From positions 1-47,295 of the forward strand of contig CANQPT010000011.1 of NCBI GenBank assembly GCA_947625805.1: DNA of 47,295 nt. Direction: 5' to 3'. The stretch comes from an uncultured Clostridia bacterium (GTDB taxonomy: Bacteria; Bacillota; Clostridia; Oscillospirales; CAG-272). Under the pieces are notes generated by a model, which did no database searches, was not told the origin of the DNA, and was given only the letters and a program-made list of their open reading frames with translations. The first letter of the stretch is position 1. Each line of letters starts with the position of its first letter. Shown in pieces: positions 124 to 40,504 of the stretch. The position numbers and the translations under genes are program-made.

Positions 124-852
124 ATGGAGGTTGTTATGGCACTGTATCGATTTGCGGGGCTTGTAGTTGAAATGTCTCCGCAGTACCCTACACTGTTAAA
201 GCAGGCCTCGCCTTATATTTTGCAAGCGCAAGACGCAAAGCCGAATATAACCATTCGGCCGGACGAAGGATATATCGAATCCATTATACAAGCCGCTCCG
301 TATTTCTCGGCGGATATGGCCGAATATTGTCGGTTCGGTACGCTGTTTTACCGTGCCTTGCTTGCCTTTGACGGAATGATGCTTCATTCCTCTGCGGTGG
401 TGCTCGATCAAAAGGCTTATCTTTTTTCGGCGCCGTCCGGCACGGGCAAATCCACACATACTTCCGGCTGGATTCGGCGCTTTGGCAACCGATCGTTTAT
501 TTTGAACGACGATAAACCCGCCATACGCTTTCACAATGGCGTACTTTACGCTTACGGCACGCCGTTTTCCGGCAAAAGCGACCTTTCACGCAACGCGATG
601 GCGCCCGTCGCGGGTATCTGTATGCTCGAGCGGGGAAACCACAACCAGATCAAACGGATTTCCGCCGAACAAGCGCTTACGCTCATTTATGAGCAGACCA
701 TCCGCCGCCTGACGCGCGATGAGGGCACACGTATGCTGGAAACGCTGGTCAAAGTCGTTTGTTCGACGCCGCTGTGGAAGATGCGCTGTAACGTCAGCGC
801 CGAGGCGGTCGATCTTTCCTATCGCGCCATGAGCGGAGCCGCAACCGTCTGA
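124..852 (+). CDS. HPr kinase/PadeK-like kinase of the type found in RiPP clusters
   Basis: Walker A 'SAPSGTGKSTHT', 'ILNDDKPAIR', 'YGTPFSGKSDLS'. Resembles the HprK-like kinases of paeninodin-type lasso clusters. The start could be the Met at 136. Confidence 0.7.
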   Translation: MEVVMALYRFAGLVVEMSPQYPTLLKQASPYILQAQDAKPNITIRPDEGYIESIIQAAPYFSADMAEYCRFGTLFYRALLAFDGMMLHSSAVVLDQKAYLFSAPSGTGKSTHTSGWIRRFGNRSFILNDDKPAIRFHNGVLYAYGTPFSGKSDLSRNAMAPVAGICMLERGNHNQIKRISAEQALTLIYEQTIRRLTRDEGTRMLETLVKVVCSTPLWKMRCNVSAEAVDLSYRAMSGAATV

Positions 853-992: not shown

Positions 993-1078
993 GAATATGT
1001 ATAAAATTGTATGAATCGGCGCATGATCCGACGCAAAAAACGCCGGGTCAGCTGTCGAATTTTAAGGAGGAAAGAATT

Positions 1079-3616
1079 ATGGCAAAATTCAAACGTATGT
1101 CCAAACGAGGCTTGTCTGTGATTCTGGTGTGCATGATGCTGTTGTCCTGCATGACGCCGGTAATCGCGTTGGATAGCCCGGAAAAAAATTCAGTCACTAT
1201 TACATTCCCTCAAGAATTTGATAATGTGGCTTTTTACGGTGGAAGTGATACCAAACTAACAGGCAAAAAAACACTTGTAACAAACAACCCTTCAGATAAC
1301 TTATATATGGGTTTTTTAAGTGGATATTATACTTATACTTTTTATGCTGTTCCACAAAGTGAAGGAGCAGATTCTTTCGATGAGCCAATGCCCAATCTTA
1401 GTATTAAGTCCAAGCCAGATAATATTGCAGAAAACCCGGAATATGTGAATATAGACAAAGCCGGATACGCCGTAACACTCAAACTCCCAAAATCTATAGT
1501 TATGCTACAGGGCATTGCTTTTGAAGTAACAGTCATAGATTCGGTTGAAACTTTCGATGTAAACGTTCGAACCAGCGGCGACGGATTCACGGTAGACAAA
1601 CCCGGTGTTAACCCCGTTGAAAACGAAAAGGGTTTTGAATTAACTATCACTCTCAGCCCGAGTCGCCGCGCAGGCTATAAACCGCAGGTGTATGACAATG
1701 ATACACTGATAGATGACACTAAAGTTACCTCCCTCGATAATGGCAAATCATATACGTATAAACTTGATCAGGTAACGAGTGCTCATACCATTGATGTTTC
1801 GTTGGTTCCCATTACGTTTACGGTAAAACGTGATGAAGGAACAGAAAACTGGAAAAACGTTGAAACCACTTTGCGGGATGGGGGTGAAACGGTAAACTAC
1901 GGAAGCAATTACACGTTTTCTCTTGCTCCTGTCGCGGGTCATACCCTTGCTAATGAACCTGTTACCATCACAATGGCTCAGGATAGTGCAAAAGCAAAAA
2001 CCCTTACAAAAGGCACGGACTATGTGGTAGTCGGAAATCAATATACCATCTATAACATTACCGGCGATGTTACAGTTACGCTCAAGGCAGTAACAGAACA
2101 GAAGTTCAACGTGAATTGGCCTACCGATACAGGATATACAATTGTTTCTGACAGTGGTAGTGACATTACAGCTGACGAGAAGTCAGTTGTTTATGGCGAT
2201 ACGTTCAAGTTCAAAGTTAAATTGGATCCCGCTTATAGCAAATCCGAACGCAATGTGGTCGTTACGGTAAACGGTCAGATTTTACCCGTTGGCGATGACA
2301 AAATTTACACCATTTCCGATATTAAAGAGAATAAAACCATTTTGGTGAACGGCGTTACTCTAAACACCTATAACATCACGCATATACAGACTGGAAATGG
2401 TTATACCTTTAGTTCACAGAGTTCGATGAGTAATGTCCCGCACGGTTCGTCTTTCTCTTTCACTGTTACGCCTGTAACCGGGTACACAATCGAAAGTGTT
2501 AAGTATAAGAAGTCCAGTGAAGTTGCAGATAATGGAACATCTTTAGAATCAAACGGAAACGTTTACACGATCGATAAAGTTGAAGATAACCTTACAATAA
2601 CCGTTACCGCTACGACGAGCACGTATACCCTTACTCTTCCGAATAAAGACACTGAGCGGAAGGGATATACCATAAAAATAGGCAACGAAGAGGCAGGAAA
2701 CAGCAAAGTATGCAATTACAATGATCCCGTCGAACTTACCATCGCGCCAAAAAAAGGCTATACCGTCACGGGTGTTTATAGAGTGGTAGACGGCGAAAGA
2801 TCACTGGTATATGGCGCTAATAACAACTATACGATCAGAGTAACAAGCGATATGAAAATTGTCGTTGAAACAGATACAATCAAATACACTGTTACCTATC
2901 AAGACAGCAAAGGCGGAACGACTACAAAAACATACGACGTAGAAACCGGAGTAAACCTTGAAAAAGGATCTCCCGAGATTACAGTGGATATTGCTGACCC
3001 AACACATGCTTATTACACTTTCGAAGGTTGGTCGAATGCGCAAAACTCTCAAAACTCTAATGTAAAAAAAGGCGGAACGATCGTACTCGCAACCGGCGAA
3101 ACCTCAGCTACCGTTACCGCACAGTGGACACTGAACCTTAGCGCACTTGAAACAAATACCGCAGGCGCTAGTACCAAAGCTTTAGGCGGTACTGTCACCT
3201 ATGACAAAGAAGACCACGAGAAGCTGACCATCAAGGTCACATGGAATTTGGGTGTGTTCCGCGAGGCCATCTCTGAAGTAGCCAACGCCAATTATGATAT
3301 TGTCTCCGTGGGCATCTGCTACTCCAATCAGAAAATAACCGAAACCGATACAAATTGGCAAACAAACGTAAAAAATTTAACGAACGAGAAAACGGAAAAA
3401 GAAGGCGAAGTGATAGTCAACTCGAACCAGCATCTCTACTACTATGTAGACGGCAGAGTTCTTGCCGAACAGGCGGATACCGCTACGTTTAAGTTCAGCA
3501 ACGTGAGAAAACCTCGATATGCGATCGGTTGGATCACAGTTCGGATCGGCAACAACGAAAACGATACCGTCACGCTTTACACAGGTGAAATAAGCTACAC
3601 CGAGTTCGATTCTTGA
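1079..3616 (+). CDS. Secreted InlB B-repeat/beta-grasp repeat surface protein
   Basis: SD AAGGAGGAAAG before ATG 1079; signal peptide MAKFKRMSKRGLSVILVCMMLLSCMTPVIA; repeated 'YTVTVTGVY'-type units; 'FEGWSNAQ...TVTAQW' InlB-like motif. No LPxTG or C-terminal TM. Confidence 0.7.
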   Translation: MAKFKRMSKRGLSVILVCMMLLSCMTPVIALDSPEKNSVTITFPQEFDNVAFYGGSDTKLTGKKTLVTNNPSDNLYMGFLSGYYTYTFYAVPQSEGADSFDEPMPNLSIKSKPDNIAENPEYVNIDKAGYAVTLKLPKSIVMLQGIAFEVTVIDSVETFDVNVRTSGDGFTVDKPGVNPVENEKGFELTITLSPSRRAGYKPQVYDNDTLIDDTKVTSLDNGKSYTYKLDQVTSAHTIDVSLVPITFTVKRDEGTENWKNVETTLRDGGETVNYGSNYTFSLAPVAGHTLANEPVTITMAQDSAKAKTLTKGTDYVVVGNQYTIYNITGDVTVTLKAVTEQKFNVNWPTDTGYTIVSDSGSDITADEKSVVYGDTFKFKVKLDPAYSKSERNVVVTVNGQILPVGDDKIYTISDIKENKTILVNGVTLNTYNITHIQTGNGYTFSSQSSMSNVPHGSSFSFTVTPVTGYTIESVKYKKSSEVADNGTSLESNGNVYTIDKVEDNLTITVTATTSTYTLTLPNKDTERKGYTIKIGNEEAGNSKVCNYNDPVELTIAPKKGYTVTGVYRVVDGERSLVYGANNNYTIRVTSDMKIVVETDTIKYTVTYQDSKGGTTTKTYDVETGVNLEKGSPEITVDIADPTHAYYTFEGWSNAQNSQNSNVKKGGTIVLATGETSATVTAQWTLNLSALETNTAGASTKALGGTVTYDKEDHEKLTIKVTWNLGVFREAISEVANANYDIVSVGICYSNQKITETDTNWQTNVKNLTNEKTEKEGEVIVNSNQHLYYYVDGRVLAEQADTATFKFSNVRKPRYAIGWITVRIGNNENDTVTLYTGEISYTEFDS

Positions 3617-3661: not shown

Positions 3662-3811
3662 ATGAAGAAGAAACCGTATGTTTCACCGGATTTCAAGGTC
3701 GTGATATACGAATCAGAACAGGATATCATGACATATTCTACTACCCATCCTGATCCGTTCGATTCGTTTGACTCGTTTGAAGATCTGTCAGACGACGACC
3801 TTGACAAATAA
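3662..3811 (+). CDS. Short peptide, YxxPx[LFM] family member 1 (RiPP-precursor-like)
   Basis: MKKKPYVSPDFKVVIYESEQDIMTYSTTHPDPFDSFDSFEDLSDDDLDK. The start at 3662 is chosen by alignment to the two paralogs; the track ORF begins at 3629. Confidence 0.65.
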   Translation: MKKKPYVSPDFKVVIYESEQDIMTYSTTHPDPFDSFDSFEDLSDDDLDK

Positions 3812-3831: not shown

Positions 3832-4017
3832 ATGAGCAAGAAGTATATTTCACCGGAATTAACCGTTGTGCTTTTTGAGACAAAAGATGCATTGATGGCC
3901 GGCGCTGGCGGATACGAGAAGTCCTACGTCGACCCGTTCCAAGACAAAGCTCCTTCTCCGCCCGCCGCCGAGGGCAAGATAAAACAGGACTGGAGTCCGA
4001 TCGATAGTCTGAAGTGA
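3832..4017 (+). CDS. Short peptide, YxxPx[LFM] family member 2 (RiPP-precursor-like)
   Basis: MSKKYISPELTVVLFETKDALMAGAGGYEKSYVDPFQDKAPSPPAAEGKIKQDWSPIDSLK; SD AGAGGTG upstream. Confidence 0.7.
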   Translation: MSKKYISPELTVVLFETKDALMAGAGGYEKSYVDPFQDKAPSPPAAEGKIKQDWSPIDSLK

Positions 4018-4243: not shown

Positions 4244-4975
4244 ATGGAGAGCAACAATCAAAAAACGTTGGAAATCAATTTGATACAGATTTTTTCTGTA
4301 TTATGGCATAAGGCGTGGATCCTCATTCTGGCCGCCGTTCTCTGCGGCTCGGTCGGCGTTGGTTATGCCAAATTACAAACGCCGATTTACCGTTCGCGCG
4401 TTTCCATTATGGTCAATAATACGTATGCCGTCGAAACCGGCGTTATTTCAAGCGGCGAAATATCGGTAGCGGTGCATTTGGCGCAAACGTATATTGTCTT
4501 AGTTAAGAGCGACACGATCTTAAACGACGTTCTTGAGGCGACCGGGCTCAACTATACAACCGCACAGCTTAAGAGCATGGTTTCGGCCAACGTCGTGAAT
4601 GACACCGAGATATTTGAAATATACGTCAGCGGCACCGATCCAAACCAAACGCGCCTGATCGCAAACGCTTTTCTTGAAGTCATGCCCGACCGCGTTCACG
4701 AAATTGCCGAAGGCAGTTCTCTTAAAACGGTAGATCGCGCCATTCTTCCGGGATCACAGACTTCGCCGAACGTGCCGAGAACGACGTTTCTGTTTGCTTT
4801 GATCGGAATTTTTATCAGCGCCGCGATCATTATGTTACTTGAAGTATTCAGCGATAAAATAACAGATGAGGATTATTTGATCCAGACGTACGATCTTCCT
4901 ATTCTTGCTTCCATACCAAGCATCGGAGATTCGCATAAATCATCTCGTTACAAATACGGATATTATAAAAAATAA
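4244..4975 (+). CDS. Wzz/CpsC-type polysaccharide co-polymerase (tyrosine kinase modulator)
   Basis: Two TM segments flanking an extracytoplasmic region; 'PNVPRTTFLFALIGIFISAAIIMLLEVFSDKI' C-terminal TM. Confidence 0.85.
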   Translation: MESNNQKTLEINLIQIFSVLWHKAWILILAAVLCGSVGVGYAKLQTPIYRSRVSIMVNNTYAVETGVISSGEISVAVHLAQTYIVLVKSDTILNDVLEATGLNYTTAQLKSMVSANVVNDTEIFEIYVSGTDPNQTRLIANAFLEVMPDRVHEIAEGSSLKTVDRAILPGSQTSPNVPRTTFLFALIGIFISAAIIMLLEVFSDKITDEDYLIQTYDLPILASIPSIGDSHKSSRYKYGYYKK

Positions 4976-4989
4976 TCGGGAGAAGCGAT

Positions 4990-5742
4990 ATGTCTGATAA
5001 GAGCAAAAAACAAAAAGAGTATACGGCCCTTGAAATAGAAGATGCGTTCCCGATGGGTCAACATCTCAGCTTTGCCGCAACCGAGGCATACAAACGACTG
5101 CGTTCATCGTTGATCTTCTGTTTGCCCAAAAATGAAAATAAAAACTGCCGTATCGTGGGTATCACAAGCAGTAACGTGGGCGAAGGCAAAAGCACTACCG
5201 CGTTCAACCTTGCGTATTCGATTGCCGAAAGCGACCAGCGCGTGCTTTGTCTGGAGGCGGATATGCGCCTTCCGCAGATTTCCAAACGCTTGAATTTAGA
5301 GACCTCACCGGGTCTTAGCGAGTGTCTGGCCGGTGAAGTCCTGGAAGGAAACGACGCCATTCGGAAAATCAACAACAATTTATACGTTATGCCGTCGGGC
5401 AGAGTTCCGCCCAATCCTTCCGAACTTTTGGGCTCGTCGGCAATGAGCCGCCTGCTTGAGCTTTTGTCGCAGGTTTTCAGCTTTATTGTGATTGATCTTC
5501 CGCCGATTGGAGCCGTTGTGGACGCGCTCAACGTGGCCAAACAGGTGGACGGTATGGTTATGGTCGTCCGCAGAGAATGGGCGACGCGCCGTTCTCTTGC
5601 AAGCGCGGTGCGCGAACTCAAACTTGCCGACGCGCGTCTTTTGGGATTTGTCTTTAACGACGCAACGGAAGGAAGCAAAAAGCCTAAAAAATACAAGGGC
5701 TATAAAAAATATTCAAAATACTACTATACAAAACAGGATTGA
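4990..5742 (+). CDS. CpsD/CapB-family BY-kinase (tyrosine-protein kinase)
   Basis: 'SSNVGEGKSTTAFNLAYSIAESDQRVLCLEADMRLPQ'; Tyr-rich tail 'KKYKGYKKYSKYYYTKQD'. Confidence 0.9.
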   Translation: MSDKSKKQKEYTALEIEDAFPMGQHLSFAATEAYKRLRSSLIFCLPKNENKNCRIVGITSSNVGEGKSTTAFNLAYSIAESDQRVLCLEADMRLPQISKRLNLETSPGLSECLAGEVLEGNDAIRKINNNLYVMPSGRVPPNPSELLGSSAMSRLLELLSQVFSFIVIDLPPIGAVVDALNVAKQVDGMVMVVRREWATRRSLASAVRELKLADARLLGFVFNDATEGSKKPKKYKGYKKYSKYYYTKQD

Positions 5743-5763
5743 TACGATTTCAGGCGGGTTATT

Positions 5764-6471
5764 ATGTTGATTGATTTTCATTCTCATATTCTTCCCGGGA
5801 TCGACGACGGTGCGGCGGATCTTTCCGTAAGTCTGGAACTGATCGCCTCATCTGCGAAACAAGGCGTTGGGCTTATGGCGGCAACGCCTCATTTCTACCC
5901 GTATCGCGTTGGATTTGACACGTTCTTTCAAAATCGCGCAAGGGCTTTCGATGCAGTATCGGAAGTCTTGCCGGCCGGGTCGCCTCATATCCTGCCGGGT
6001 GCGGAAGTGGGCTATTTCAAAGGAATCAGTCAAGTATCCGAAGCCGAACGGTTGGGACTGGGAAACACGGGGATTCTCCTATTGGAAATGCCGTTTGAGC
6101 GGTGGGATAAGAGCGTGATATCCGAAGTCGTGGACTTACACCAAAGCGGCGGGGTGACCGTGTTGATCGCGCACATTGAACGATACATAGACTATCAGAA
6201 ACATAACGCTGTGCAAGAACTGCTCAACTCCGGGATCTATTTTCAATCAAACGCAGAGTTCTTTTTGAATAAGAGGCAAAAAAAGACAGCGCTTAAGATG
6301 TTGGAGCGCGGGCAGATCCACGTCTTAGGGTCGGACTGCCACAATATGACCGATCGCAAACCCAATCTGGGCGAGGCCGTTCGCGTTATAACCGACGCAT
6401 TCGGCGCGTCGGCGGTCGATGCGATTGACACGTTCGGCGCAAATCTTTTGTCAGGTGAAATTCCAAAGTAA
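5764..6471 (+). CDS. CpsB/CapC-family PHP tyrosine phosphatase
   Basis: 'LIDFHSHILPGIDDGAADL...MAATPHFYP...VLGSDCHNM' PHP motifs. Confidence 0.9.
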   Translation: MLIDFHSHILPGIDDGAADLSVSLELIASSAKQGVGLMAATPHFYPYRVGFDTFFQNRARAFDAVSEVLPAGSPHILPGAEVGYFKGISQVSEAERLGLGNTGILLLEMPFERWDKSVISEVVDLHQSGGVTVLIAHIERYIDYQKHNAVQELLNSGIYFQSNAEFFLNKRQKKTALKMLERGQIHVLGSDCHNMTDRKPNLGEAVRVITDAFGASAVDAIDTFGANLLSGEIPK

Positions 6472-24597: not shown

Positions 24598-24748
24598 CGT
24601 AAAAATCCTTTTGCTTTCTCCAAATGATTCATTATTATTGTATCACACCCTACCCTGTTTTGCAAGCATTCCGCCCGACTTGGGACAAAAAACGCTCGAC
24701 AAAAGTGCGGATTGCCGCCACACTGTCGATTTCTTTTGCGCGATTAGG

Positions 24749-25016
24749 CAATACAATCAGGGTACAACGCGTTTTTCAGGGAATGCCCGCCGCGCCTGCT
24801 GTGCCGCCGCATTTGCCATACGTTTTATGCCTGCAAGCGCGCGCCTTGCATTCATCGGCGGGCATTCTCTTCGAAAAATCTCCGACCCATGAAAAGCGCG
24901 ATTTTTCGATTTGCAAGACAGCAGGCCGATGGAATACTTTCCGTATTCCGAGGCCGATCACACAGCAAAGCGGGAAATCACGCCGTCAGGGGCGCATTGG
25001 CACCCTGATTGTATTG
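24749..25016. repeat. MITE-like element or multi-hairpin structured RNA candidate
   Basis: Perfect 15-bp terminal inverted repeats CAATACAATCAGGGT (24749-24763) / ACCCTGATTGTATTG (25002-25016). Internal inverted repeats GAATGCCCGCCG/CGGCGGGCATTC, CGAAAAATC/GATTTTTCG, GGAATAC/GTATTCC. Confidence 0.65.
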
Positions 25017-25136
25017 TCTATTCAATACGTTTTACGACCTCCGCAATTCCATCTTGGCGTTTTGTTGCACAGGTCGCGCATCGCGTCACCGCGCCCAAAA
25101 TCCCGGAAAATAAGGGTTTCCACTCTCAGTTTCTGC

Positions 25137-31548: not shown

Positions 31549-31590
31549 AACAAAGGGGCTTTGTGATCAAGCGCACAAAGCCCCTTTGTT
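31549..31590. repeat. Dispersed hairpin repeat, copy 1
   Basis: AACAAAGGGGCTTTGTG - atcaagcg - CACAAAGCCCCTTTGTT, 17-bp perfect stem. Confidence 0.8.
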
Positions 31591-31618: not shown

Positions 31619-34423
31619 TTATCCAAAATTCATATTCCAGTCGATTGGATCTTGGGCGCGGTAGAGGAAGGTCACAGCCTGTCCTCGGACGCAGGCGCCG
31701 CTCGGATCAAAGTGGGTGACGTCCACGCCGGTGGTGACGTTGCAGGAAACCGCCCAGAGCATGGCGTCGTAATAGAACGCATCTACTCTTACGTCAAAGA
31801 AGGAATGATTCACCATTCCCAGCATGTCGAGCGGCTGGCCTGCCGCCCGCCATAAGAAGGTCACGATCTGTGCGCGGCTGCAGATGCCCTCCGGTGCAAA
31901 ATGGGTGGCGTCCATGCCTGTGGTAATGCCCTGCTCCACTGCCCAAAGAACGGCGTTGTAGTAGTAGGCGTCGGGCGACACGTCCACAAAAGGATTGTCC
32001 CGAAAGAGCGGGGTCGGCTGTCCGGCGTATCTCCAGAGGAAGGTGACAATCTGCGCTCTTGTGCAACTGCCCTTCGGTGAAAAGTGGGTGTCGTCCACGC
32101 CTGTGGTGATATCGCCCGCTGCCGCCCAAATCACGGCGTCGGTATAATATGCGCTGTCGGATACGTCGACAAACTGGGTGAGGGGCGCGTTTCCTACCGC
32201 AAGAAACGCGCACTCGTGCACGATGCCCAGCGTCAATTCGATGCCTGTATGTCCCTCTTTCAGCGCCGTGACGTTGCCCGCGCCGTCGACGGCCGCCACC
32301 GTGGGATCGGTGCCGGTCCACACACAGCCGGTATTTTCGATCTTCACCCCGTCCCCAAAGCGTTCGCTGCCGACGGCAAGGGCAGTCACTCGGATGCTTT
32401 CGCCCACCTGCAGGCGGCTGCTGTCTAAGGAAAGAATGATCTCGATCTTGTAAGGGCCGGAGTTTGCTCCGAAGTCAAAGCTCACGCCGTTTGAAATGGT
32501 CGCTTCGGAAAACTGATCCAGCGCGAGGCGGACTTGATTTGTCACATTCCGGTCGGCGGGTTTTCCGACGGATACGGCATCTTCCGTGCTGAAATCCTGC
32601 ACCCAATAACAGCAACCGTTGATTTTGAAACAACCGATGCCGATCGAGGTATAATCTTCGGCTAAGATGTTCGCCCGATGTCCCTCGGAATGCATCCAAC
32701 TTTCCATGGCCTCCGCGGGACTTGCCTGACCTGCGGCGATGTTTTCGCCCCAGATCTTGCTGTTCATTTCGTTGATGTGAGAGCCGTCGGTACGGGTGTG
32801 GGAGAAGAGCACCGAAGCCTCTGCCGCCCGCTGCATGGCGCATTCGAGCAGTTCTTTGTCCATGGTAAGTGCGCCAAGCCCCTGCTTTGCACGCTCTGCG
32901 TTGACCAGATCCAGCACCTCATAGGCCGCCGAATAATCGTCATAGCCTGAAATGCTTACCGTCTGGATCCTTGCAAGACCGTTGACGCCGTAGGCGCTGA
33001 GTTCGGGGTTTTTGCAGTTTAAGCGCACGTTTGCCGGGAAAGCAAAACTGTGCACGTACCGGATGCTCTCCGGCAGGGTTACTTCACCCAGACTGCCGCA
33101 CCCGTAGAAGGCCGCGCGGTAGATATTTTTCACCCGGTCAAAGGTGAGGTCGGTAAGCGAGTAACAGTTCATGAACGCCTGGAACGGAATGACGGTCAGG
33201 CCGTTGCCCACGAAGGATCGCAGAGACGTGCACTCGCCGAAGCAGGCGTTGCCGATGTAAGTGACCGTGTCCGGCAGGACGACCTCGGTCAGCGAGTCGC
33301 AGTATGCAAAGGTATGCGCATAGAGGCGCAAAGGCGTATCGGGGAAGTGGATGGTCGTAAGGTCACGGCACTCCCGGAACATCTGGTAAGAGGTTTCCCT
33401 AAGACCGCGCCCCAAGGTCACGGTCTGCAAGGCGCACCCGTAAAAGGTAAAGTACCCGGCGACGGTCACGCTGTCCGGAATGGTCACCTCGGTCAGTCCC
33501 GCCTCCTGAAAAGAAGATTCGTCCAGTTCGCTCACGCTGTCCGGAACGGTCACATGGGTGAGGTTTTCGGCTTGCAGAAATGCGCCTCTGTACACCTTGG
33601 TCACGCCGGTCGGAATGGTGAAAGAGGAATCGCTTTTACCGGTCGGATAGGCGAAGAGCGTCTTGCCGCCGTCGGCGTAAAGCACGCCGTCGACAGCGGA
33701 AAAGACCGTGTTGCCGGCCTCTACGGTGTAAGCGTTGATTTTTGCGCCGAAAAATGCGATCCCGGAGATCTCGGTCACGTTTTTGCCGACCTCAAAGGTG
33801 GTAAACGGACACCGCTCGAAGACGTAGTCATCGATGGTCCTGACCCCGGGCGCCTTGATTTCGGAAAGGCTTGTACAGCCTGAAAAAAGAGCGTAGGACA
33901 GCTTCTCGATCCCGGCGGGCAGGGTGATGGAGGCTAAGGACGTGCATTCCGCAAAGGCCGCGTTCCCGATGGCGGTGAGCGTGTCGGGGAAGGACACGCT
34001 CGTAAGGAGCGGGCACAGGCAAAAAGAATACCGTGAGAGGGAGGTCACCCCGGAAGTCACGATCACAGCGCGAATGGACGACTGAAAATCGCCCCACGGA
34101 ATGTCGTCCAAGGTTTCGATCTCCTTCATCTCGCCGGTTCCGGAGACGGTCAGAGTTCCGTCCGACAGGGTCCAGGTAAGATTTTCTCCCCAGGTTCCCG
34201 CAGTCCCGGCAGCAAGCGTCCGAATCCCGCCGTTTTCGGGCAGGCCGGCCTCAAGTTGAAATTCGTCCGGCGCCTCGGCCTCGGACTGCAGAGACAGGGC
34301 TTGTGCCGCTCGGTCGGCGGCAGCCTGTCCGATCACTCCTTCAGACTCTGCGGCAAGGGACGCAGGACAGAGAGCGAAGAACACGGCGATCATCAAAAGA
34401 CCCGCGATCATTCGGTTTTTCAT
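31619..34423 (-). CDS. Secreted BspA-type LRR + CAP (SCP) domain + three SLH domains surface protein
   Basis: Signal peptide MKNRMIAGLLMIAVFFALCPASLA; LRR_5 repeats 'LTSVSFPDTLTAIGNAAFAECTSLASITLPAGI'; CAP 'LVNAERAKQGLGALTMDKELLECAMQRAAE...HRANIL'; SLH 'FVDVSDSAYYTDAVIWAAAGDITTGVDDTHFSPKGSCTRAQIVTFLWR' x3. Confidence 0.93.
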   Translation of the reverse strand: MKNRMIAGLLMIAVFFALCPASLAAESEGVIGQAAADRAAQALSLQSEAEAPDEFQLEAGLPENGGIRTLAAGTAGTWGENLTWTLSDGTLTVSGTGEMKEIETLDDIPWGDFQSSIRAVIVTSGVTSLSRYSFCLCPLLTSVSFPDTLTAIGNAAFAECTSLASITLPAGIEKLSYALFSGCTSLSEIKAPGVRTIDDYVFERCPFTTFEVGKNVTEISGIAFFGAKINAYTVEAGNTVFSAVDGVLYADGGKTLFAYPTGKSDSSFTIPTGVTKVYRGAFLQAENLTHVTVPDSVSELDESSFQEAGLTEVTIPDSVTVAGYFTFYGCALQTVTLGRGLRETSYQMFRECRDLTTIHFPDTPLRLYAHTFAYCDSLTEVVLPDTVTYIGNACFGECTSLRSFVGNGLTVIPFQAFMNCYSLTDLTFDRVKNIYRAAFYGCGSLGEVTLPESIRYVHSFAFPANVRLNCKNPELSAYGVNGLARIQTVSISGYDDYSAAYEVLDLVNAERAKQGLGALTMDKELLECAMQRAAEASVLFSHTRTDGSHINEMNSKIWGENIAAGQASPAEAMESWMHSEGHRANILAEDYTSIGIGCFKINGCCYWVQDFSTEDAVSVGKPADRNVTNQVRLALDQFSEATISNGVSFDFGANSGPYKIEIILSLDSSRLQVGESIRVTALAVGSERFGDGVKIENTGCVWTGTDPTVAAVDGAGNVTALKEGHTGIELTLGIVHECAFLAVGNAPLTQFVDVSDSAYYTDAVIWAAAGDITTGVDDTHFSPKGSCTRAQIVTFLWRYAGQPTPLFRDNPFVDVSPDAYYYNAVLWAVEQGITTGMDATHFAPEGICSRAQIVTFLWRAAGQPLDMLGMVNHSFFDVRVDAFYYDAMLWAVSCNVTTGVDVTHFDPSGACVRGQAVTFLYRAQDPIDWNMNFG

Positions 34424-34437
34424 AAATTCTCCTCCTA

Positions 34438-34944
34438 TCATTCAAATAAACATTTTGCGCTTTGATAGTGTAAAAAGATCCCCTGCTCGCCCAGGGCCGC
34501 GATCTGCCCCGCGTCGGCAAGCTGCCAGCCGTCGGTTTCTTGAGGCTGAGCGCGCACCTCGGACGGGTCAAAGTCCCGCTCGAACCGATAGCAGTCGACG
34601 ATATAGTTGTCCCCGTCGTTCGACTCCCGCCGATAGGTGAGCATCAATTGGTGCGGACAGTCCGAGACGTCGATCCCGGTTTCCTCCCGTACCTCGCGCA
34701 CAACCGCATCGTACGAGTCCTCGCCTGCCTGTGCCGCCCCGCCCGGAATCTCCCACCAGCCGGGGGCGTAGTCCTTGTTCGCCTTGCGTTTGGTGATCAA
34801 AAACTTTCCGTCCGGGCGGCGGATCGCGCCCAGTACGGTCAGATGAAATTCTCCGTCTTTCAGAATCCAGTCGTTTCGGCGCATGGTGCGGCCGGTGCGG
34901 TTTTTGTCTTTATCGTAAATGTCCCAACGTTCTTCCTTTTTCAA
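34438..34944 (-). CDS. NUDIX hydrolase
   Basis: 'GGAAQAGEDSYDAVVREVREETGID' Nudix box; 'WDIYDKDKNRTGRTMRR'. Confidence 0.93.
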   Translation of the reverse strand: MKKEERWDIYDKDKNRTGRTMRRNDWILKDGEFHLTVLGAIRRPDGKFLITKRKANKDYAPGWWEIPGGAAQAGEDSYDAVVREVREETGIDVSDCPHQLMLTYRRESNDGDNYIVDCYRFERDFDPSEVRAQPQETDGWQLADAGQIAALGEQGIFLHYQSAKCLFE

Positions 34945-37345: not shown

Positions 37346-37387
37346 AACAAAGGGACTTTGTGGTTAAGCGCACAAAGTCCCTTTGTT
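37346..37387. repeat. Dispersed hairpin repeat, copy 2
   Basis: AACAAAGGGACTTTGTG - gttaagcg - CACAAAGTCCCTTTGTT, 17-bp perfect stem, followed by T-rich DNA. Confidence 0.8.
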
Positions 37388-37436
37388 TTTTGTTTGAGGC
37401 GACCGCTAAAGCAGTCGGTTTTGGATTATGTTGTGT

Positions 37437-37580
37437 TCATTCGCCGAAAAAGGTTTCTTCGTCCAGCAAAGAATCAAAGCCAAGGGGATCGGTGTCGGAG
37501 CCGTTAAAATCGTCCATGATCTCCTTGTCGGTCGCAAAGTGATATACGATCATCTCGGGAGTTTCGTACTGTGTTTTCAT
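37437..37580 (-). CDS. Short peptide, YxxPx[LFM] family member 3 (absent from ORF track)
   Basis: MKTQYETPEMIVYHFATDKEIMDDFNGSDTDPLGFDSLLDEETFFGE (47 aa); strong SD GGAAAGGAGAA upstream of the ATG on the minus strand. Confidence 0.7.
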   Translation of the reverse strand: MKTQYETPEMIVYHFATDKEIMDDFNGSDTDPLGFDSLLDEETFFGE

Positions 37581-37603
37581 TCGCTTATCTTCTCCTTTCC
37601 GGC

Positions 37604-40504
37604 TTAAACGTTATCGGGCATCAGCTGAGTGCTCGTCTCCGCGGTGACCACATAAATCTTTCCGTTGATACGCAGGGTTACGAAGGCCATGACGTACCGC
37701 TCCTCGTTTTTCGGAATATCTTTCATGGTGAAGTTGATGTTGCTGGCAATATAAGCATCGAAAGAAAAATCTCTGCCCGCTACGTAGTAGTATACGCCCT
37801 TTGGACTATTTTGAAGAACCGTCGATGGCTGTCGGTTTTTCCACTCGTAGTCACCATTATCAACCTCGTAATTCTGTTTGGCAATTTCATCTTTTACTTG
37901 ATCCGCCGTAAAGGAGCCATCCGCATAAACAAAGCCAAACGCCAGAATCTTCGCGTTTTTCAGATCTTCTTGATACTTGAACTCTGCGCCGTCTCCCCCG
38001 GTCGAGTCCCATCCAAACCGGAATGCATTCGTATACTTGCCATCCTGTTCACCCTGTGTAGGTGGATCCGTTTTTACATCTACCTGCACCATTTTCTGAA
38101 CGGCCTCATCAGGAACATACCACAAGGCCGTCAAGTGGATCTCCGTGCCTTTCTTGAAGTCGCTGTTGATGGTCAGTGTCTGCCCGTCCTCGGAAAGGGT
38201 ACAACCGACTGGAGCTTGGTCCGTAAACTCCCATCCGCCGAATTCGTACTTGACCGTTTCTTCATCATCGTTCATGATGTCGTCAAGCGTTTTCAGCGTG
38301 ACGGTCATGGTGCCATCGGCCACTTGCACATTCTCATCCTCGGAGGTGTACGTCTCCTGCGTGGTCTTGGGTTCGCTTTCACTCTTATCGTCCGTGTAGG
38401 AAACGGTGTACGTGTTGGGGGTCTTATCGAAGATCGGGTACAGGTCGCAGTTGGTGTAGATCGCCTCGACCGGGTTGCCCTTCCGGTCACCCCAACACTT
38501 GAAGGTGTAGGTGTACTGAACGTCGGCAGGCTTTTCGGGTTTGCTCACGTCCTTGAGAAGTGCGAAGACTTCGTTCGGGGTCTTGAGCGCGCCGCGCTGG
38601 ACGTTGTTCGAGTTACTAGTACCTTGGACAACGTTCACATTAGTATACTCGTATTTCACGGGCTCGGCGATCGGCTCCCCGTCTTCACCGTGGAAGGTCA
38701 CGGTCGGCTGTAGGTTGTCCTGAATGACCGCCAACATGGTGAAGGTTGCGTTCGAATTTTCGTTTTTCGGCTCTCTTTGGTTGTTTTCATCGTAAAAATG
38801 TGTTGCATGACTGTTAAAGATCGAAAATTCGCTGACCGCACTTGCGGTATACACACCGTTCATGCCGTTCAATCTCGAATTGATATAAAAGTAATAGTAT
38901 CCGTTTTTCAGGTCAAGTACGCTGGGGGCTTTTCCGTCGTTCGAGTCCGCGGGTGAGCCCCATTGCCAAGATTGACCGCGCAGACCATCATTACCATTTG
39001 AATCCAGACCCCACATTTTGACGTACACATCATCCGCGATGATAGTCTTGTCGGCATCCACTCCGTCAATCTTGTAGACCAGCGTGATACCGGTACCGCC
39101 GTGCAGAGCCACCTTCTCCTGCAAGAAATTCTGTTTTGCGGCGGGGTTGTTGATGGTTTGTGTGGTCGGTTTTTCGTAGACGATACCGTATTTGTCGTAG
39201 GAGGCTACGAAGGTTACGTCATCGACGTAAACATAGGTTGCGGGATTCACAAGTGTTCCGTCCGAGCCTTGCACCGTCCAGCCCTTAAAGGTGTAGGCAT
39301 ACACGCCGTCGTGCTTACTCAGGTTCGGCACTTGCGGGACTTCCCCGTCCAGTTTACCTTGATTTGCGGAAAGTTGCTTAATTGTCGTTCCGTCATCGTC
39401 GAGGAAAGTGACCGTGTACTCCGTCTCTCCGGAAGCCGTCTTGTAGTACGGGAAAAGATCGACGTCCTCGTAGATGTAGTCAATCCGGTTGCCCGCCTCG
39501 TCACCCCAGTAATCAAACACGTAATAGGTCTCACCTTCCGGCTCCTTGGCGGGAAGAGTGGGGTGTTCGTCCAACAGCGCGTACACTTCGTTCGGTGTCT
39601 TGAGCGCGCCACGCTGTACGTTGTTCGAGTTATTAGTACCTTGGACAACGTTCACATTGGTATACTCGTATTTTATGGGCTCGGCGATCAGCTCCCCGTC
39701 TTCACCGTGGAAGGTGACGGTCGGCTGTAGATTGTCCTGAATGACCGCCAGCATGGTGAAAGTTGCGTTTGAATTGTTGTTTAACGGGTCTCTTTTGTTG
39801 TGTTCATCGTAAAAATGTGTTGCATGACTGTTAAAGATGGAAAATTCGCTGACCGCACTCGCGGTATACACACCGTTCATGCCGTTCAATCTCGAATTGA
39901 TATAAAAGTAATAGTATCCGTTTTTCATGTCAAGCACGCTGGGGGCTTTTCCGTCGTTCGACTCTGCGGGCAAGCCCCATTGCCAAGATTGACCGCGCAG
40001 ACCATCATTACCGTTTGAATCCAGACCCCACAATTTGACGTACACATCATCCGCGATGATAGTCTTGTCGGCATCCACTCCGTCAATCTTGTAGACCAGC
40101 GTGATACCGGTACCGCCGTGCAGCGGAACTTTCTCAGGTAAAAGATCCTGCTTGGTACCATCAGGGTTTTTGATTGTAATCGGTTTCGGGTCTACGAAAT
40201 ACACACCGCCCCCGTCTGCCGCCTTTGTTTGCACTTCATCATCTGTGTCCGCGTCCGTGGCGGTCAATTCCGCTTCCGGGACGGCGTCCGGCGTGTCCGC
40301 GCTCGCAGTGGTTTCCGCGCCGACGGAAGAGTCTGCTTCATCCGCGGCGGCGATTTCCTGCCCCACGGGCTGTACGCTTGCCGACAGGGTTTCTTCAGCC
40401 GCGCTTTCGACGGTTTGTGCGCCGACGGAAAAGCTCGCAACAGGCGTTACGGAAACGACTGTCACAATCGCCAGCAAAAGCGCCAACAACTCTTTCTTCA
40501 TCAT
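37604..40504 (-). CDS. Secreted protein with duplicated domain and InlB-like repeats
   Basis: Signal peptide MMKKELLALLLAIVTVVSVTPVASFSVGAQ; SD GGAGGAACAT; 'YAYTFKGWTVQG...VASYD' InlB-like motifs; C-terminal module shared with the 1079-3616 product. Confidence 0.75.
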   Translation of the reverse strand: MMKKELLALLLAIVTVVSVTPVASFSVGAQTVESAAEETLSASVQPVGQEIAAADEADSSVGAETTASADTPDAVPEAELTATDADTDDEVQTKAADGGGVYFVDPKPITIKNPDGTKQDLLPEKVPLHGGTGITLVYKIDGVDADKTIIADDVYVKLWGLDSNGNDGLRGQSWQWGLPAESNDGKAPSVLDMKNGYYYFYINSRLNGMNGVYTASAVSEFSIFNSHATHFYDEHNKRDPLNNNSNATFTMLAVIQDNLQPTVTFHGEDGELIAEPIKYEYTNVNVVQGTNNSNNVQRGALKTPNEVYALLDEHPTLPAKEPEGETYYVFDYWGDEAGNRIDYIYEDVDLFPYYKTASGETEYTVTFLDDDGTTIKQLSANQGKLDGEVPQVPNLSKHDGVYAYTFKGWTVQGSDGTLVNPATYVYVDDVTFVASYDKYGIVYEKPTTQTINNPAAKQNFLQEKVALHGGTGITLVYKIDGVDADKTIIADDVYVKMWGLDSNGNDGLRGQSWQWGSPADSNDGKAPSVLDLKNGYYYFYINSRLNGMNGVYTASAVSEFSIFNSHATHFYDENNQREPKNENSNATFTMLAVIQDNLQPTVTFHGEDGEPIAEPVKYEYTNVNVVQGTSNSNNVQRGALKTPNEVFALLKDVSKPEKPADVQYTYTFKCWGDRKGNPVEAIYTNCDLYPIFDKTPNTYTVSYTDDKSESEPKTTQETYTSEDENVQVADGTMTVTLKTLDDIMNDDEETVKYEFGGWEFTDQAPVGCTLSEDGQTLTINSDFKKGTEIHLTALWYVPDEAVQKMVQVDVKTDPPTQGEQDGKYTNAFRFGWDSTGGDGAEFKYQEDLKNAKILAFGFVYADGSFTADQVKDEIAKQNYEVDNGDYEWKNRQPSTVLQNSPKGVYYYVAGRDFSFDAYIASNINFTMKDIPKNEERYVMAFVTLRINGKIYVVTAETSTQLMPDNV
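38568..39118 (-). repeat. 551-bp intragenic repeat, copy B
   Basis: Encodes EKVALHGGTGITLVYK...ALKTPNEVFALL, near-identical to copy A at 39585-40135. Confidence 0.85.
39585..40135 (-). repeat. 551-bp intragenic repeat, copy A
   Basis: Encodes EKVPLHGGTGITLVYK...ALKTPNEVYALL; same length as copy B. Confidence 0.85.

Follow-up and report, generated by a model that had tools for sequence, protein, structure and literature searches.

The locus at positions 37437-37580 (minus strand) of contig CANQPT010000011.1 raises the question whether a 47-aa reading frame below the ORF cut-off is a gene and, if so, what kind of product it encodes. The window covers positions 1 to 47,295 of this contig, from an uncultured Clostridia bacterium whose genome (1.87 Mb, 74 contigs, numbered here with C) is 93% complete. 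The first-pass annotation had proposed a hidden peptide gene with a strong Shine-Dalgarno (SD) sequence, paralogous to two peptides 34 kb away and likewise placed directly 3' of a large secreted protein. We conclude that it is a genuine gene, belonging to a large family in gut Clostridia that stands behind big secreted-protein genes. Its product is probably a RiPP-like precursor of the type of the recently described linear polyphosphorylated peptides (LPPs), encoded apart from its maturation enzymes and matured in trans.

The 47-aa peptide gene and its surroundings

Translation of the minus strand at 37437-37580 gives exactly the 47 residues that had been proposed (MKTQYETPEMIVYHFATDKEIMDDFNGSDTDPLGFDSLLDEETFFGE), and the strong SD is there as well: AGGAGA at 37591-37596 (minus strand), 10 nt ahead of the ATG and present also in the copies on C12 and C17. 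The start of the gene lies 23 nt after the TAA of a 966-aa ORF (37604-40504, minus strand). This secreted protein has a signal-peptide-like N-terminus and a weak List_Bact_rpt match under the curated cut-off; no recognised surface anchor was found in it. It is likely the upstream partner co-transcribed with the 47-aa peptide. The gene of the 966-aa protein contains a 548-bp direct repeat (38559-39106 and 39576-40123; 94% identical).

On the 3' side of the peptide gene, two stem-loops (37346-37417, minus strand), one at 37400-37417 and the other a 17-bp hairpin at 37346-37387, form a putative transcript end, which would also serve the convergent gene. The 42-bp hairpin-forming sequence is found twice in the window (37346-37387 and 31549-31590; 90% identity) and adjoins two gene ends. 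Neither a kinase nor a RiPP recognition element (RRE) nor an SpI peptidase is a neighbour of the 47-aa peptide.

Paralogues in the genome and in close relatives

Profile searches gave five peptide copies in the genome, three in the window and one each on C12 and C17, and every copy, single or paired, stands 3' of a large secreted protein. The pair at the left end of the window consists of peptide 1 (3662-3811, plus strand; MKKKPYVSPDFKVV..., start codon uncertain) and peptide 2 (3832-4017, plus strand; MSKKYISPELTVV...). Their partner is an 869-aa secreted protein (1007-3616, plus strand), for which a later ATG is probably the true start. The paralogy of the 47-aa peptide to this pair is real though remote (27-36% identity, 8 invariant columns), and a single-sequence query with the 47-aa peptide misses the pair in the genome. 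With a profile built from the peptides of other genomes only, the three window peptides were the top 3 of 1,212 window frames (E-values 1e-10, 3e-5 and 7e-5; next frame 0.11).

Closer paralogues lie outside the window, at C12:28177-28320 and C17:31644-31790 (79% and 70% identity), each 23 nt 3' of a secreted-protein paralogue. Among the 47-aa peptide gene and these two copies, SD, spacing and frame are all kept, and length differences are whole codons only. Their pairwise dN/dS is about 0.37-0.51, which counts as moderate evidence only because the sites are few. The tails of all five peptides share an Asp-Pro pair; the next residue is Phe in four of them and Leu in the fifth.

The first-pass annotation had staked its proposal on conservation of the frame in close relatives, and here the outcome is divided. 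Within the genus, the peptides are missing from genomes G001 and G002, which also have no HprK-like kinase and no strong match for a discrete RRE; G003 has the peptides (as weak matches), the kinase and the RRE.

A family with a YxxP leader

At the N-terminus the conserved residues, MKxxYxxPExxVxxF...D-I, make up a YxxP leader motif such as RREs bind, and the family form reads MKKxY(E)xPE(L/M)xV(V/I)xFExxDII(T/M)xS. In the 47-aa peptide, Y5, P8 and M10 provide the YxxPx[V/L] leader feature. Of 58 peptides, 55 have the Tyr (the rest Phe), 53 the Pro(+3), 42 the Asp(+14) and 40 the Ser(+19). Their tails vary and are acidic, Asp and Glu together making up about 25%. Neither Pfam nor NCBIfam assigned the peptides to a family, and the leader profile matched none of the solved structures.

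The leader profile finds 145 of 395 genomes of the bacterial family at E<=1e-3 and 217 of 395 at E<=0.5, the latter threshold covering 58 of the 71 genera, and a genome may have as many as 21 scored copies. In a phylum-wide sample, besides the window's own genome, the leader occurs in 2 of 397 genomes at E<=1e-3; because it is so rare there, the family of peptides is largely a family-level expansion. Two further loci are recorded for their arrangement. L079 (G208:C13) holds three tandem pairs of secreted protein and peptide, the peptides being very alike, and at L080:9972-10124 a leader-type peptide with a Cys-rich core (SGCTSDCACVDPTGGFAGEAVCF) lies between an HprK-like kinase and an RRE.

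Position behind secreted proteins

The same relative position had been noted for the 47-aa peptide and the distant pair. It holds for all three window peptides and extends to the family: a same-strand ORF of >=300 aa ends <=60 nt upstream of 40/58 peptides, against 58/376 control genes from the same loci. Of the 26 complete partners, 25 have a signal-peptide-like N-terminus; the corresponding figure for controls is 16 of 53. The partners are of various kinds (metallophosphoesterase, BspA-type LRR, List_Bact_rpt or nothing known). A single domain common to all of them was sought and rejected, the C-termini falling into mostly unrelated groups.

SLH, LPXTG and C-terminal membrane helices were found in 0/40 partners. 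Lack of anchors was nevertheless dropped as a partner feature, since the difference in C-terminal anchors (0/40 vs 8/91 controls) is not significant (p 0.1); lipoproteins are the main source of the overall anchor difference between partners and controls. Elsewhere in the window, 31619-34441 encodes a 940-aa LRR/CAP/SLH surface protein with an SLH anchor.

Homologues of maturation enzymes

The left end of the window has the order NTP_transf_5 3' end, kinase, secreted protein, two peptides, Wzz, Wze, CpsB, all on the plus strand. The NTP_transf_5 (LppN-like) gene is cut by the contig edge, so that only its 3' end is present (3-50; QDEQRAKYLIRHLGL*). The HprK-like kinase (LppK-like) at 124-852 is 58% identical to a copy on C6; its AlphaFold model (pLDDT 93) matches HprK/P and PEPCK structures. 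The capsule-type genes for Wzz, a Wze-like ATPase and CpsB/CapC (4244-6471) adjoin peptides 1 and 2.

The genome has two HprK-like kinases, those just named. There is one discrete RRE, on C6 together with the second kinase (PF05402, 4.6e-20). An SpI-like peptidase homologue (C28:10753-11169; E 1e-38 to the SpI profile) is unlinked, and NTP_transf_5 genes occur on C14 and C31 in addition to the cut one. Homologues of LppA, LppK, LppB, LppS and LppN are thus all present. The genome's second PqqD match was rejected as a discrete RRE, being the SCIFF radical SAM maturase (C13, L041:1671-3083; TIGR03974, 754 bits).

On C6 (L040:5474-9166), the HprK-like kinase and the RRE stand immediately behind a VanW-like gene, a gene for an AMP-binding enzyme and an ORF resembling a carrier protein; this neighbourhood possibly represents a further modification activity. 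An interspersed repeat of ~270 bp at 24741-25020 of the window has further copies on C6 and C12 and a partial one on C13 (88-96% identity).

The RRE profile matches solved lasso and LPP RREs, namely TbiB1, TfuB1, LppB (9x8z) and PbaB1, the family profile reaching E 8e-6 against 9x8z. Matches of the RRE to AlphaRep proteins were repeat artefacts of a single-sequence search and were superseded by the profile search. In the alignment, the invariant columns N35 and D72 fall on N33 and D70 of LppB; in the LppB crystal structure, these two residues make contact with the Pro and Tyr of the leader (PMC13381572). LppB favours Tyr over Trp in this motif.

Co-occurrence and co-localisation in relatives

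The RRE is found in 130/145 peptide genomes vs 88/250 others (Fisher 4e-28) and the HprK-like kinase in 135/145 vs 96/250 (2e-29), shared ancestry being only partly controlled in both comparisons. With one genome per genus, the counts are 27/30 vs 14/39 for the RRE (p 5e-6; peptide E<=1e-2) and 20/21 vs 24/48 for the kinase (p 3e-4; peptide E<=1e-3). About 10% of the peptide genomes are without an RRE and 7% without a kinase, and many of these are incomplete MAGs.

Most family peptides stand apart from any enzyme. In 10 of 40 fetched loci, the peptide has both an HprK-like kinase and a discrete PqqD-type RRE at <=6 kb, often in the order peptide-kinase-RRE; some of these loci also include an archaeal-type SpI (TIGR02228-like) and NTP_transf_5. 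Co-localised peptide, kinase, RRE, SpI and NTP_transf_5 make up the LPP core gene set. Locus L074 brings together a large protein, peptide, kinase, RRE, SpI, NTP_transf_5, Wzz, Wze and CpsB, and so combines the secreted-protein layout with the LPP-type enzyme set. Many of these parts recur, differently ordered, at the left end of the window. Searching the contig collection with an HprK-like kinase profile gave 80 loci, for the most part of Clostridia from gut and rumen; only 13 of them contain a leader of the present type. Kinase/RRE clusters accompanied by such a leader occur in the cultured relatives Herbivorax sp. ANBcel31 (L166) and Clostridiales bacterium VE202-01 (L151).

Comparison with known systems

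LPP loci comprise LppA/K/B/S/D/N (Popov et al. 2026, PMC13381572) and have been mapped on Bacilli genomes; their leader consensus is YxxPxVLxHQxIxFETxxS, and the phosphorylated Ser3 of LppA lies 18 residues after its Tyr (PMC13381572). The present family shares with them the YxxP leader followed by a hydrophobic residue, the variable core, the discrete RRE, HprK-like kinase, archaeal-type SpI and NTP_transf_5, and a frequent capsule-locus neighbourhood. In the window's own genome, the HprK-like kinase and NTP_transf_5 are present, the LppB-like RRE with its Asn and Asp is on another contig (C6), and a homologue of the SpI-like leader peptidase is on C28. ABC exporters are too widespread for one of them to be singled out as the MsbA-like exporter of LPP loci.

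In contrast to LPPs, the precursors here are numerous and scattered, and most of them follow the gene of a large secreted protein at a great distance from the enzymes. The full LPP leader consensus is absent, with Phe at +10 instead of +13, no HQ and only a partial FE[A/T]. Ser at +19 (40/58 in the family) compares with +18 for LppA Ser3, but all five peptides of this genome lack Ser+19 and have their first core Ser/Thr elsewhere. The 47-aa peptide is not an in-cluster precursor; close to the pair at 3.7-4.0 kb, by contrast, are a kinase and NTP_transf_5. Because the leader consensus and the in-cluster precursor are lacking, we name the system LPP-like, not LPP.

The kinase and RRE also remotely resemble ScmC, HprK_rel_A/B and ScmD of the NCBIfam PqqD/HprK-rel cassettes (SynChlorMet ScmC/ScmD, HPr-rel-A/B), but all these matches are far under the curated cut-offs, and no radical SAM partner lies immediately beside the kinase or RRE.

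Proposed maturation in trans and its rivals

For the LPP-like precursor that we favour, the N-terminal ~20 residues (YETPEMIV...) would be the leader and would bind the discrete PqqD-type RRE of C6. The core would be the acidic tail with Ser/Thr (GSDTDPLGFDSLLDEETFFGE). Taking the precursor from the RRE, an HprK-like kinase (the one at window 124-852 or the one on C6) would phosphorylate a hydroxyl residue of the core. The SpI-like peptidase of C28 is the candidate for removing the leader, and the NTP_transf_5 enzyme may attach a further group ahead of export. The peptide is probably on one transcript with the large secreted protein; hence, the peptide product and the protein probably act jointly at the cell surface.

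The strongest constraint on the family, its location 10-40 nt behind the gene of a large secreted protein, would also suit an accessory peptide: a small cytosolic or surface partner of that protein (export helper, folding or retention factor), with the RRE as a docking adaptor only and no natural product. The signal-peptide-like N-termini of the partners, their lack of a common domain and the absence of SLH, LPXTG and C-terminal membrane helices point the same way. We nevertheless consider this unlikely, as it leaves the YxxP leader and the co-occurrence of kinase, RRE, SpI and NTP_transf_5 unexplained when taken alone, and the C-terminal-anchor difference does not separate partners from controls.

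Very improbable is a precursor of another RRE-guided RiPP class, e.g., a lasso peptide. Paeninodin-like and other lasso peptides share the RRE and a [Y/W]xxP leader, paeninodin clusters have an HprK-like kinase, YxxP[E]x[L/M] is like lasso leaders, and the best RRE matches are lasso B1 proteins. However, the B2 transglutaminase-like leader peptidase (PF13471) does not exceed the cut-off in this 93% complete genome (best 14.5 bits, cut-off 26), the motif has Tyr instead of Trp, and the linear acidic core has no Gly1 + Asp/Glu ring pattern; LPP is the better fit for kinase and SpI. We give hardly any credence to the idea that the ORF is a leftover, untranslated or in decay, from a duplicated 3' region of a secreted-protein gene: such a region is indeed duplicated among the three secreted-protein paralogues, but frame, SD and spacing are conserved, dN/dS is <1 and the leader occurs in most genera of the family.

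Beyond the LPP-like precursor itself, we tentatively put forward, as a possible but rather doubtful extension, a genome-wide "tail-peptide" system. In it, one shared RRE/kinase/peptidase/transferase set would serve many dispersed peptides, each made in step with one unrelated secreted protein that has no recognised anchor, and the modified peptide would not be a free natural product but would serve for the display, retention or regulation of its partner at the surface (e.g., by capsule linkage).

Significance

What is new here is the layout, with many dispersed precursors behind unrelated secreted proteins; in an open-access library, we found no description of dispersed precursors of this kind in such a position. 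Tiny ORFs that are nameless in Pfam and NCBIfam, and that occur in >1/3 of the sampled species of one gut Clostridia family, would thereby gain a functional context. The LPP-like pathway would be widened to include precursors that are matured in trans and linked with secreted proteins, and what LPPs are for, a question left open in PMC13381572, would become directly testable via the partner protein.
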